From Granulicella sp. L46 (lineage in GTDB: Bacteria > Acidobacteriota > Terriglobia > Terriglobales > Acidobacteriaceae), in the NCBI RefSeq assembly GCF_009765785.1, contig NZ_LMUT01000005.1, positions 174,642 to 238,641 of the forward strand: a stretch of 64,000 nt of DNA, written 5' to 3'. Position numbers and translations under genes: made by a program. Positions 30,022 through 47,555 of this stretch are shown one piece after another (the stretch's first letter is position 1; every line of letters starts with the position of its first letter). The notes under the pieces are model-generated. The model was not told the origin of the DNA. It was given only the letters and a program-made list of their open reading frames with translations, and searched no databases.

Positions 30022-31665
30022 TTACACGCTACCTTGCGGACCTGTATCTGTGAGTGCCAGGTATTCGTGAATGAAGGCAATCGACATGCTGCCTTCGCCG
30101 ACGCTGCTGGCAACGCGTTTGACGGAGCCGTGGCGAACGTCGCCGGCGCAGAAGATGCCGGGGATGCTGGTTTCGAGCGCGAAGGGCTCGCGGTCGAGTG
30201 ACCAGGTGCTGATGTCGCGGCCCGTGCAGATGTAGCCGTTGGCGTCGCGCTCGAGGGATGGGGGTAGCCAGTGGGTTTTGGCGACAGCTCCAGTCATGAT
30301 AAAGAGTGCTTTGGCGTCGCGGGTGCAGGTGGATTCGGGGACGTCGGGTGGTCGGGACGTGGTTGTGATCTGCTCAAGATGGTCTTCGCCGAGGACGGCT
30401 GTGACCTGGGTATAGGGCTCGACTCGGATGTTGGCCTTGTCGTGGATCTGCTGGATGAGGTATTGCGACATGGTTTGTGCAAGCCCGGCGCCGCGGACAA
30501 GCATGATGACTTCGGCAGCGTAGCCGGAGTAGAAGACGGCGGCCTGTCCGGCAGAATTGCCGCCGCCGATGATGAAGATACGTCGGCCGGTGACGGCAAT
30601 ACCGTCAAAGCGGGACGCGCCGTAGATGATTCCTCGGCCGAGCAAATCGTCGTGGCCTTCAAACTCGAGGCGATGCCAGGAGACGCCGGTGGTGAGCAGG
30701 AGAACGGATGCGCTGATGCGGTCGCCGCCATCGAGGGTGACGCAGTGGCCATCGTCGAGCGATTGCACCTCCTCGATGTTGCGCTTGACCAACATTTCGA
30801 CGCCGAAATGTTTGACCTGCTTGAGGGCGCGTTCGGTTAGTTCGTCGCCGGAGATGCCGGCGGGAAAACCGAGATAGTTTTCGATGCATGAAGATGTGCC
30901 CGCCTGGCCTCCAGCGGCGAAGCGTTCGACGAGGAGAACCTTGAGTCCTTCCGAAGCGCTATAGACAGCGGCGGCCATGCCTGCTGGACCAGCGCCGGCG
31001 ATGATGATGTCGTAACGCGAATGTTTGGGGATGGTCTGGAAGCCGAGGGCTTCGGCGACGCTGCGGACGGTAGGAGTTTCGACCTCTCGTCCTTCTACGA
31101 AGGCGGTGGTGATGGTTTCCGCCTCAGGGGGTTCGGGAGGCCATTCGTAGTCGTACTGGATGCGGTTGGCGGATAGAAATGCCCGGATGGCGCGGCAGTT
31201 GTGGTCGTATTTCGATCCGGCGATGCGAACGCGCGAGGAGGGCGTGTCGCGAGCGAGCTGTTGGGCCATGCCGAAGCGTTGGGTCATGGTGGAGAAGATG
31301 ATTTCGCCGGCGGAGGGGCTATCGCGAACGAGCTCCTGGAGCTGCTGGCGTTCGAAGCGAGCGACGCGGCATTTCGTAACGGCGCGGACGGAGACGATGT
31401 TGGCGGTGCCCATGAAGATGGGCGTTTCTCCGGAGAACATGCCTGCGACGCTCCTTCCAAGTACGCGACGCTGGCCGACGATGTCTTTGATAGCGTCGAG
31501 TTCTCCATCAAGGATGACGAAGAAGCGCGGCTCTTCACCCTCACGGGCGAGCCACTCTCCGGGTTCGAGGTGAATGTCGGCGGCACGGCGCGCGAGGCGT
31601 CGTCGTTCTTGTTCTTCAACGCCTGCAAAGAGCGGAATTTTTTCAAGGTCTGCGGAAGTAATCAT
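30022..31665 (-). CDS. Cyclic-nucleotide-binding domain / thioredoxin-reductase-like flavoprotein fusion
   Basis: 547 residues in three parts. Residues 1-125: cNMP-type domain (LFAGVEEQERRRLARRAAD, then GMFSGETPIFMG as phosphate-binding cassette). Residues about 145-210: a thioredoxin/glutaredoxin-like segment with GSKYDHNCRAIRAFL, where the first redox Cys of a CxxC is missing. Residues about 220-547: FAD/NAD(P) oxidoreductase of the TrxR fold (IIIAGAGPAGMAAAVY, IFIIGGGNSAGQAAVF, IFCAGDVRHGSVKRVASSVGEG), without the TrxR CxxC in its central domain. Such fusions occur in actinobacteria and acidobacteria; electron acceptor unknown. Its position inside the sulfur-carrier cluster suggests a redox role there, which is inference. 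Confidence 0.87.
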   Translation of the reverse strand: MITSADLEKIPLFAGVEEQERRRLARRAADIHLEPGEWLAREGEEPRFFVILDGELDAIKDIVGQRRVLGRSVAGMFSGETPIFMGTANIVSVRAVTKCRVARFERQQLQELVRDSPSAGEIIFSTMTQRFGMAQQLARDTPSSRVRIAGSKYDHNCRAIRAFLSANRIQYDYEWPPEPPEAETITTAFVEGREVETPTVRSVAEALGFQTIPKHSRYDIIIAGAGPAGMAAAVYSASEGLKVLLVERFAAGGQAGTSSCIENYLGFPAGISGDELTERALKQVKHFGVEMLVKRNIEEVQSLDDGHCVTLDGGDRISASVLLLTTGVSWHRLEFEGHDDLLGRGIIYGASRFDGIAVTGRRIFIIGGGNSAGQAAVFYSGYAAEVIMLVRGAGLAQTMSQYLIQQIHDKANIRVEPYTQVTAVLGEDHLEQITTTSRPPDVPESTCTRDAKALFIMTGAVAKTHWLPPSLERDANGYICTGRDISTWSLDREPFALETSIPGIFCAGDVRHGSVKRVASSVGEGSMSIAFIHEYLALTDTGPQGSV

Positions 31666-33290: not shown

Positions 33291-33448
33291 GAGGTGTGCG
33301 GAAGTTCTCGGTAGCTTTTGAGTGTATCGTCCGGCTGTGATCTGGTTCATTGAATCTGCGCGCGGGGATGTGCGAGAGTTAGTAGAGGTTTAGCCGTTGG
33401 CTCGCTGTGCGTGATGGGCGGGCTGGGCAGAGAGTTGTGAAATCGATC

Positions 33449-33865
33449 ATGGCAAAGACGAAAGCGGTTCCTACGTTTGATGAAGTGCTGGCTACCCTGG
33501 GTAGCGAAAAGTTTGATGTGTCTCCGGCGACGGAAGGTTCAAATCGAGCGGCGGGAGCGTACCGGGTGAGTAAGGACGGGTGCGCGGCAGAGATTGCGCC
33601 GAGCCCGGAGAAAGATGCTCCGACTCGTTTGCTGACTAAGGGCGGATGGGTGTTGGGTGGAGAGATTGCGCGCCTGGTGGATCGTGGGTATCAGAAATTT
33701 CTCAAGACTGGCAAGCTGGAGATTCCGGCGACGGCTGATCATCTGCGCGCGCTGCATGGGTTTGATGAGCAGTTGAAAGAGGCTGTGGGATCGATGGTGC
33801 TTTATAACGAGGCGCTGGGGACGACCAGCGATCGGTATGACTACGATCGGATCAAGGGGCGGTAG
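33449..33865 (+). CDS. Conserved hypothetical protein
   Basis: 138 residues from the ATG at 33449 (a GTG at 33407 is also in frame). Not recognised. The N-terminal half, VPTFDEVLATLGSEKFDV then KDGCAAEIAPSPEKDAP, looks loosely folded; the C-terminal half, HLRALHGFDEQLKEAVGSM, is helical and amphipathic. No signal peptide, membrane segment or metal motif. Even codon use and clean boundaries support a real gene. Confidence 0.6.
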   Translation: MAKTKAVPTFDEVLATLGSEKFDVSPATEGSNRAAGAYRVSKDGCAAEIAPSPEKDAPTRLLTKGGWVLGGEIARLVDRGYQKFLKTGKLEIPATADHLRALHGFDEQLKEAVGSMVLYNEALGTTSDRYDYDRIKGR

Positions 33866-33883: not shown

Positions 33884-33965
33884 TGCCGGGCCTTCAGCCC
33901 TTGGTATTTTGGCGGCCTGAGCCTAGGCCTTCGACCTAGGCTGTGATGATACCGCGCCGTTGGCG
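33884..33965 (+). repeat. Palindromic intergenic repeat between a hypothetical and rsmI
   Basis: AGCCTAGG (about 33918-33925) pairs with CCTAGGCT (about 33933-33940) as an 8-bp perfect hairpin, preceded by gggccttcagcccttgg. It sits in the convergent gap between the gene ending at 33865 and rsmI. Without a T-run it is not a standard terminator; it resembles acidobacterial REP-like elements built on the CTTCAGCCC motif. Confidence 0.55.
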
Positions 33966-33978
33966 GTGTGGAACCAGG

Positions 33979-35025
33979 TTAGCGTTTGCGGGGTTGGGAG
34001 CGCTGCCATTCGCGGTAGGCTTCGCTTTTGCCGATGTTGCGGGATTTGGCTACGCGCTTGAGGGCGTCTTTTTCGGATAGGGATTCAGAGCGCATGAGGG
34101 CTGCGACTTCGTCGGATAGGGTGGTGGGGCGCGTGGTTGCGCTGGTGGTAGATGCGGTGGTGGGAGTGCCGTCGATGAGGAGGACCATTTCGCCGCGGAC
34201 GGAGGGGCGGGCGCGGAGGTTGGCGAGAAGCTCGGCGGCGGTGCCGCGGAGGAACTCTTCGTGGAGCTTGGTGAGCTCGCGGGCTAGGACTATGCGCTGG
34301 TTGGGGCCGAAGAGGTCGACGATGTCGGCTAGTGCGTCCACGATGCGGTGGGGGGTTTCGTAGAAGATGTGGGTGGTTGGTTGTTCGCCGGGGCTAAAGC
34401 CCCTCATCTTTTCTGAAGGGTTGTGAGACCCAACGCTGAAGCCTTGGGGTACCTGATCTGGGGCGGTCCCCGAAGACGAAGGACGATCTACGGAACGAGG
34501 GTAGAGCCCATCGCGCAGGGTTTCGAGGGTGGTTCGGCGTTGGCCTTCTTTACTGGGGAGGAAGCCGTGGAAGGCGAAGCGTTCGGCGTTGAGGCCGCTG
34601 GCGATTAGGGCGCTGAGCGCGGCGTTGGCTCCGGGGATGGGGTAGACGGTGATGCCGGCGGCAATGGCTTCGGCGGCGATGGTGGCGCCGGGGTCGGCGA
34701 TGCCGGGCATGCCTGCGTCGGAGACTACGGCGATGCGGCCGCCGGCTTTGAGGGCTTCGATGAGCTCGCTGGCGCGGGCATTTTCGTTGTGGGTGTGGTA
34801 GCTGATCGTTGGTGTGCGGATGCCGAAGTGGCCGAGTAGCTTGGCGGTCTGGCGGGTGTCCTCGCAGGCGATGCGGTCGACTGAACGAAGGACGCGGAGG
34901 GCGCGGAGGGTGATGTCTTCGAGGTTGCCGATGGGGGTGGCGACGAGGTAGAGGCCGGGGGCGAGGGGCCTGTCGTGCGACAGCTCAGAGTTGGACAGGT
35001 CGTCCTCGGCTGACGGGTCAATCAC
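33979..35025 (-). CDS. rsmI: 16S rRNA (cytidine-1402-2'-O)-methyltransferase with an in-frame repeat insertion
   Basis: 348 residues; the known family is about 285. Family motifs: GLYLVATPIGNLEDITLRAL, ACEDTRQTAKLL, ISYHTHNENARASELI, VVSDAGMPGIADPGA, PIPGANAALSAL, FHGFLPSKEGQR and FYETPHRIVDAL. Between LETLRD and TTHIFYETPHR there are about 42 residues (RSVDRPSSSGTAPDQV and GFSVGSHNPSEKMRGF) with no place in the family; their DNA is a palindromic repeat (see 34385-34515). The insertion keeps the frame, so activity may survive if the segment loops out. The start overlaps the stop of the M50/CBS gene by 8 bases. Confidence 0.92.
   Translation of the reverse strand: MIDPSAEDDLSNSELSHDRPLAPGLYLVATPIGNLEDITLRALRVLRSVDRIACEDTRQTAKLLGHFGIRTPTISYHTHNENARASELIEALKAGGRIAVVSDAGMPGIADPGATIAAEAIAAGITVYPIPGANAALSALIASGLNAERFAFHGFLPSKEGQRRTTLETLRDGLYPRSVDRPSSSGTAPDQVPQGFSVGSHNPSEKMRGFSPGEQPTTHIFYETPHRIVDALADIVDLFGPNQRIVLARELTKLHEEFLRGTAAELLANLRARPSVRGEMVLLIDGTPTTASTTSATTRPTTLSDEVAALMRSESLSEKDALKRVAKSRNIGKSEAYREWQRSQPRKR
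34385..34515 (+). repeat. Palindromic repeat inserted in frame in rsmI
   Basis: The element begins near a perfect palindrome GGGGCTAAAGCCCC (34390-34403) and continues with further pairable segments (ggttgtgagacccaacg; ggggcggtcccc). The core GGGCTAAAGCCC is also found between genes at 47373-47384. Boundaries were set from where the protein stops matching RsmI and are approximate. Confidence 0.7.
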
Positions 35026-47250: not shown

Positions 47251-47335
47251 GGGCAGTCCTTGGTGGCGAAGGGTGGTGAGGAAGTGCAGCTTTTTGTTAA
47301 GGGCAAGATCAACGGCGAGGGCGACGATGTCCCAG

Positions 47336-47390
47336 AGGCTAAAGCCCGTCTACGGGTGGGTTGTTATTGTCCGGGCTAAAGCCCGAACCT
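47336..47390 (+). repeat. GGGCTAAAGCCC palindromic repeat pair
   Basis: A gaggctaaagcccg unit followed 25 bases later by CCGGGCTAAAGCCCG (47371-47385), a perfect palindrome. The same core opens the element inserted into rsmI (34390). Confidence 0.65.
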
Positions 47391-47394
47391 ATCT

Positions 47395-47545
47395 CAGGAG
47401 CAACAGCAACGGCGAGAACAACGGCAAATGCAAGAACAACAGCAACGGCAAATGCAACAACAAATACAGGGATCCTTCGCTTCGCTCTAGGATGACGGCG
47501 TAAAACAAACAACGGCAACGGCAACAACAACGGCAACGAGTGCTA
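47395..47545 (+). repeat. Family A array, copy 7 (class 2 module only)
   Basis: AACAACGGCAAATGC-type hexamers, one TCCT/AGGA module (gatccttcgcttcgctctaggatgac, about 47470-47495) and further CAACGG units, adjacent to the stop of the hypothetical gene at 47556. It lacks the TTCC/GGAA module. Confidence 0.75.
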
Positions 47546-47555
47546 CAGGGTTCGG

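Follow-up and report, generated by a model that had tools for sequence, protein, structure and literature searches.

A REP/REPIN-like two-hairpin repeat in frame in rsmI of Granulicella sp. L46, oriented with the local GC skew

Introduction

How does a gene for an rRNA methyltransferase come to carry palindromic DNA within an open reading frame, and what kind of element is that DNA? The question is raised by rsmI in the window analysed here, a stretch of 64,000 nucleotides from the genome of Granulicella sp. L46. This genome is denoted G000; other G numbers denote the genomes of relatives.

Results

The extra segment of rsmI

Pfam assigned RsmI a TP_methylase match that stops at residue 170. 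Solved homologues were matched (5hw4, 9pzg and 3kwp), and the alignment to 3kwp ends at query residue 167 and restarts at 213. This gap, together with the end of the TP_methylase match, indicates that the approximately 42 extra residues proposed in the initial annotation are real. The palindrome GGGGCTAAAGCCCC was found inside the uninterrupted 348-residue frame, as that annotation had also claimed (Table 1). The nearest named relatives of this rsmI are from Bryocella elongata, Granulicella and Acidipila and point to a host in the Acidobacteriaceae. The whole extra segment had been taken for palindromic DNA; this held for 34378-34459, which supplies approximately 27 of the 42 residues, but not for 34460-34503. 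The latter was considered as a second repeat and ruled out, with no significant match and no convincing relative elsewhere in the genome by BLAST (best E 0.12).

The AlphaFold model of RsmI was confident save mainly for residues 1-4 and 191-212. Residues 191-212 had pLDDT below 50 and formed a loop between a confident helix and a confident strand. In this model the insert is a predicted disordered loop, which together with the use of several reading frames (below) speaks for tolerated DNA rather than a protein domain. A different palindromic intergenic stretch, GCCTAGGCCTTCGACCTAGGC, was noted just downstream of rsmI at 33885-33950.

Table 1. Positions in the window of rsmI, its extra segment and the related repeat.
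Feature	Position	Strand	Remarks
rsmI, 16S rRNA C1402 2'-O-methyltransferase gene	33979-35025	minus	348 aa; frame open across insert; TP_methylase, solved homologues
Extra coding segment of rsmI	34378-34503	minus	approximately residues 175-216; missing in 22/25 same-genus relatives
Repeat copy in rsmI, ~80 bp double hairpin	34378-34459	plus (= G-rich strand)	model R1, 72.4 bits, E 6e-18
First hairpin of rsmI copy, GGGGCTAAAGCCCC	34390-34403	plus	
Spacer between hairpins of rsmI copy	34404-34427	plus	sequence and length vary among copies
Second hairpin of rsmI copy, ACCCAACGCTGAAGCCTTGGGG	34428-34449	plus	consensus ACCCAAGGCTGAAGCCTTGGGG; one stem mismatch here
Non-repeat remainder of extra segment, LYPRSVDRPSSSGTAPD	34460-34503	minus	other rsmI carriers differ here
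Divergent two-hairpin relative, intergenic	47323-47395	plus	R1, 20.2 bits; same G-rich-strand orientation

The repeat family

Alignment of 25 copies gave the consensus GGCATACCC-c-GGGGCTAAAGCCC(C)-spacer-TATGAGACCCAAGGCTGAAGCCTTGGGGTACC, which spans approximately 80 bp and forms two hairpins. The spacer varied in sequence and length among these copies, and two-sided changes in the second stem preserved pairing. The 5.48 Mb genome contains the 13-mer GGGGCTAAAGCCC 56 times and the reversed control once, and a BLAST search with the rsmI stretch returned approximately 40 similar places. A covariance model, R1, yielded 86 genome matches at E <= 0.1. One of them (C5:562359), overlapping an opposite-strand match, was discarded as an artefact of the palindrome, leaving 85 copies. 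A known RNA family was rejected, as Rfam gave no match for the repeat.

Under a strand-neutral codon model 72 of the 85 copies were placed between genes (29 convergent, 33 in the same direction, 10 divergent) and 13 inside genes; many stand 3' of genes or between convergent genes. The core said to recur at 47373 is indeed present, with the correction that it forms half of the divergent two-hairpin match in Table 1. Beside that copy, 47395-47550 contains a GGATCCTTCGCTTCGCTCTAGGATGAC palindrome along with simple repeats of AACAACGGCAAC type. Copy number within the genus ranged from 0 to more than 80 by species, and none was found in 7 of 28 genomes. Among 120 genomes sampled from the host's family and searched with stricter filters, strong R1 copies were present in 2 of 79 genera.

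In-frame copies inside other genes

Further in-frame copies, for which a search had been proposed, were found in this genome (11 in nine genes, rsmI included), with more in relatives. Single copies lie in genes for a PMT-family protein, RecG, an ABC transporter, RsmB and an unnamed protein, two each in genes for a PIG-L protein and an Lhr helicase, and a divergent one in the gene for MnmG. The rsmB site is empty in relatives, for example in G013 at 122815/122822. Taking this genome and its relatives together, in-frame copies use all three frames of one strand and one frame of the other, for which genes for MoeA and a KDO transferase in G006 are examples; since several frames are used, the repeat is not preserved for any one peptide. 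Copies read on the G-rich strand have one open frame, AKAP..MRPEAEASGYL (L121 1654-3075; L181; L201). The peptide set depends on the strand of the gene, those on the C-rich strand encoding one set and those on the G-rich strand another.

Other repeat-like in-frame segments, CHPERSAQRAAEGPAT and VILSEARSAQPKDP among them, were seen in the same proteins (L154, L161, L137, L130, L169). They have the look of a second family of translated intragenic repeats.

Orientation of copies and GC skew

Copy orientation was defined by the strand bearing GGGGCTAAAGCCCC, and polarity was scored against local GC skew. This strand was the locally G-rich strand for 85/85 copies in the genome of the window. The R1 strand was likewise the G-rich strand for 30/30 copies in G016 and 46/49 in G006, where the skew at the three exceptions, all located at two Y1 genes, does not exceed 0.1 in absolute value. 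The lock to skew holds whichever strand the host gene uses. The peptides open to a copy inside a gene are set by the fixed orientation.

A lock to transcription was considered and rejected. A first codon model, built from long ORFs, had put 83/83 informative copies antisense to genes and had left almost no convergent or divergent contexts; the effect was gone under the strand-neutral strong/weak model. The apparent lock was an artefact, because the extreme GC skew had made the first codon model read strand and not coding. A sign of this was that it put all 58 window genes on one strand despite a plausible plus-strand gene at 33407-33865.

GC skew was approximately +0.30 across the whole window (1-64000) and 0.7-0.8 at fourfold sites whichever the gene strand, with plus-strand G:C counts of 2580:287 for genes on the minus strand and 1498:264 for those on the plus strand. 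Outside the window, on contig C5 of the same genome and in G006, the skew changes sign between patches of approximately 100-250 kb. A simple two-arm replication pattern was rejected: the skew flips about a dozen times round the closed G006 genome and thus gives no clear reading of replication direction. Repeat-bearing parts of contig C5 show strong skew of alternating sign, and at 12 of 20 repeat-free sample points its size is 0.1 or less; inversions and recently acquired unskewed DNA could explain this pattern. That one strand-specific process in this genus, acting in sign-flipping patches, both fixes the orientation of all copies and drives the extreme excess of G over C at fourfold sites is a conjecture that we rate as quite unlikely. 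Candidates for such a process would be an unusual programme of replication, or recurrent single-strand synthesis or repair where Y1 has nicked repeats.

The rsmI site in relatives

An empty rsmI site in sister species, which the initial annotation had proposed to look for, was found: the segment is absent from 22 of the 25 same-genus relatives whose rsmI was read. A conserved protein segment carried by all relatives, which would have spoken against an insertion, was accordingly not the pattern among these 25. In G020, for example, the halves of the gene meet at positions 30311/30315, and relatives with an empty site have rsmI linkers of approximately 4 to 17 residues.

Three same-genus relatives, G014, G018 and G006, carry a copy at the identical place, so that four carrier species share site and coding orientation. 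The copies of G014 and G018 are in frame. In G006 (L075) the upstream frame hits a stop inside the element and the gene is frame-broken around the copy, which may be a real lesion or an assembly error. An RsmI tree built without the insert placed the four carriers in three groups, and a single clade was rejected (p-AU 0.002). Spacers in the four rsmI copies are all 20 nt long and resemble one another more than random sets do (7 of 20,000); this similarity fits one old insertion with many losses over frequent movement. These copies may go back to a single old insertion that was lost many times, to exchange between species or to insertion on several occasions.

A Y1 transposase gene beside copies

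The genome of the window contains one Y1_Tnp match, with full copies directly on both sides in direct, not inverted, orientation. The gene is frameshifted and split between two frames, which may mean that the copies in this genome are relics. In G006 the homologue (154 aa, 82% identity over residues 9-96) is intact, with copies on both sides in opposite orientation; this gene adjoins, on its other side, a homologue of the gene that neighbours the G000 Y1 gene. The Y1 protein was assigned to PF01797 and has an HVH motif. Weaker R1 matches were seen beside Y1 genes in G016, G018, G025, G027 and G001. A RAYT-type Y1 transposase probably moves the repeat, to judge from these neighbourhoods.

Discussion

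We consider it likely that a mobile, non-autonomous REP/REPIN-like element with two hairpins has left a copy in rsmI, in frame and in a surface loop, and that this copy, if the gene is expressed, yields a disordered loop that is tolerated. The repeat would be moved as single-stranded DNA by a RAYT-type Y1 HUH transposase and inserted into one strand only, most likely the lagging-strand template, whereby each copy would acquire a fixed orientation. An orientation fixed by strand is also expected if single-stranded DNA inserts in the manner of IS200/IS605. Inside genes, a copy would persist only if the orientation imposed on it kept the frame open and the loop that received it was tolerant; other intragenic copies would be purged or would break the gene.

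Three other explanations were weighed. The rsmI copies might stem from one ancient insertion in the genus, since lost many times or exchanged, with the element now immobile here. We regard this as a real contender that falls somewhat short of an even chance: the common site and coding orientation in four species, the likeness of their spacers and the broken Y1 gene of G000 all favour it, whereas the scatter of the carriers over three groups of the RsmI tree goes against it, as do the many separate losses that a single gain would demand, the nearest sisters having no rsmI copy. It is unlikely, in our judgement, that the repeat is instead a selected functional element (a KOPS- or Chi-like polar signal, or an mRNA structure) whose orientation reflects function and not insertion. 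Near-perfect polarity against the G-rich strand in three genomes is reminiscent of polar chromosome motifs, and the numerous copies 3' of genes or between convergent genes would suit such a role. Yet copies lie within unrelated genes in several frames, their number differs widely among species of one genus, single sites are present or absent between relatives, and the transcription-linked version of the idea is the artefact described above.

Very little probability is given to rsmI being dead in this lineage and the insert being a decaying lesion rather than a tolerated loop. The frame-broken G006 gene, with its copy at the same site, is what such decay would look like, but the frame runs open through the insert in G000, G014 and G018, with conservation of the C-terminal part; the codon pattern of rsmI is that of coding DNA on both sides of the insert, and the predicted structure has the insert outside its confident core.

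With a mobile element in a tolerated loop as the preferred reading, in-frame invasion of genes by palindromic repeats is extended to free-living soil Acidobacteriaceae, and the invaded genes include those for core rRNA- and tRNA-modifying and repair proteins. Unlike symmetric REPINs, the asymmetric, strand-locked repeat records the polarity of insertion copy by copy. The single-strand insertion model for REP-like DNA thereby becomes directly testable, with a transposase that is intact in one species and broken in another.

Keyword searches of PMC2817692, PMC3116915, PMC3733652 and PMC8266576 found no description of a skew-locked orientation or of this repeat family, and by these searches strand-locked orientation is a new feature of the family. 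An earlier report of the repeat itself was also sought: sequence strings returned just GGGCTTTAGCCC, a similar stem-loop in an H. influenzae REP (PMC2817692), the other papers retrieved being unrelated. In having a short inverted hairpin pair, a variable spacer, tens of copies and a flanked Y1_Tnp (PF01797) gene, the repeat is like REPs and REPINs with RAYTs, as portrayed in PMC2817692 and PMC3116915. As with REPs, its palindromes are abundant, GC-rich and mostly extragenic (85 copies, 72 intergenic). In RAYT-associated REP systems two inverted copies flank the transposase gene; the copies seen here are inverted beside the intact gene of G006 and direct beside the frameshifted one of G000. The palindrome of such REPs adjoins a GT(A/G)G head (PMC2817692); this head is absent from the 25 aligned copies, whose ends read GGCATACC and GGTACC. 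REPINs comprise two identical inverted REPs, whereas the two hairpins here differ in stems and loops, and it is this unlikeness that gives each copy a polarity. The repeat is therefore a new REP/REPIN-like family that departs from two defining REP/REPIN features, head sequence and identical inverted units.

The gene neighbouring the repeat belongs to the same Y1 enzyme superfamily as those of IS200/IS605 elements (IS608, ISDra2). IS608 and ISDra2 target the lagging-strand template (PMC6006769), which would fix orientation. Unlike IS200/IS605 elements, the repeat is approximately 80 bp long and non-coding, and orientation here is fixed relative to GC skew. Intragenic GTAG/CGTC REPs are known from O. 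terrae, Thioalkalivibrio, Thauera and R. conorii; many of the host genes serve DNA repair or replication, each insert encodes 20-30 residues, and loops or linkers have been proposed as tolerant sites (PMC3733652). Like the present repeat, they are small palindromes, single or as dimers, within coding sequence; the present repeat differs in having neither a GTAG nor a CGTC head and in pairing two unlike hairpins asymmetrically. No description of a strand-locked orientation of these REPs was found in PMC3733652.

Rickettsia palindromic elements, to which the rsmI insert had been likened, also lie in frame in unrelated genes, stay translatable and have empty sites in relatives (PMC3733652 and general knowledge). 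The host here is by contrast a free-living acidobacterium, copies flank a Y1 gene and orientation follows GC skew. The likeness stands as an analogy and not as family membership: by this comparison the Rickettsia elements are an analogue that works alike, and the rsmI insert is an acidobacterial REP/REPIN-like element with a Y1 gene beside some of its copies.
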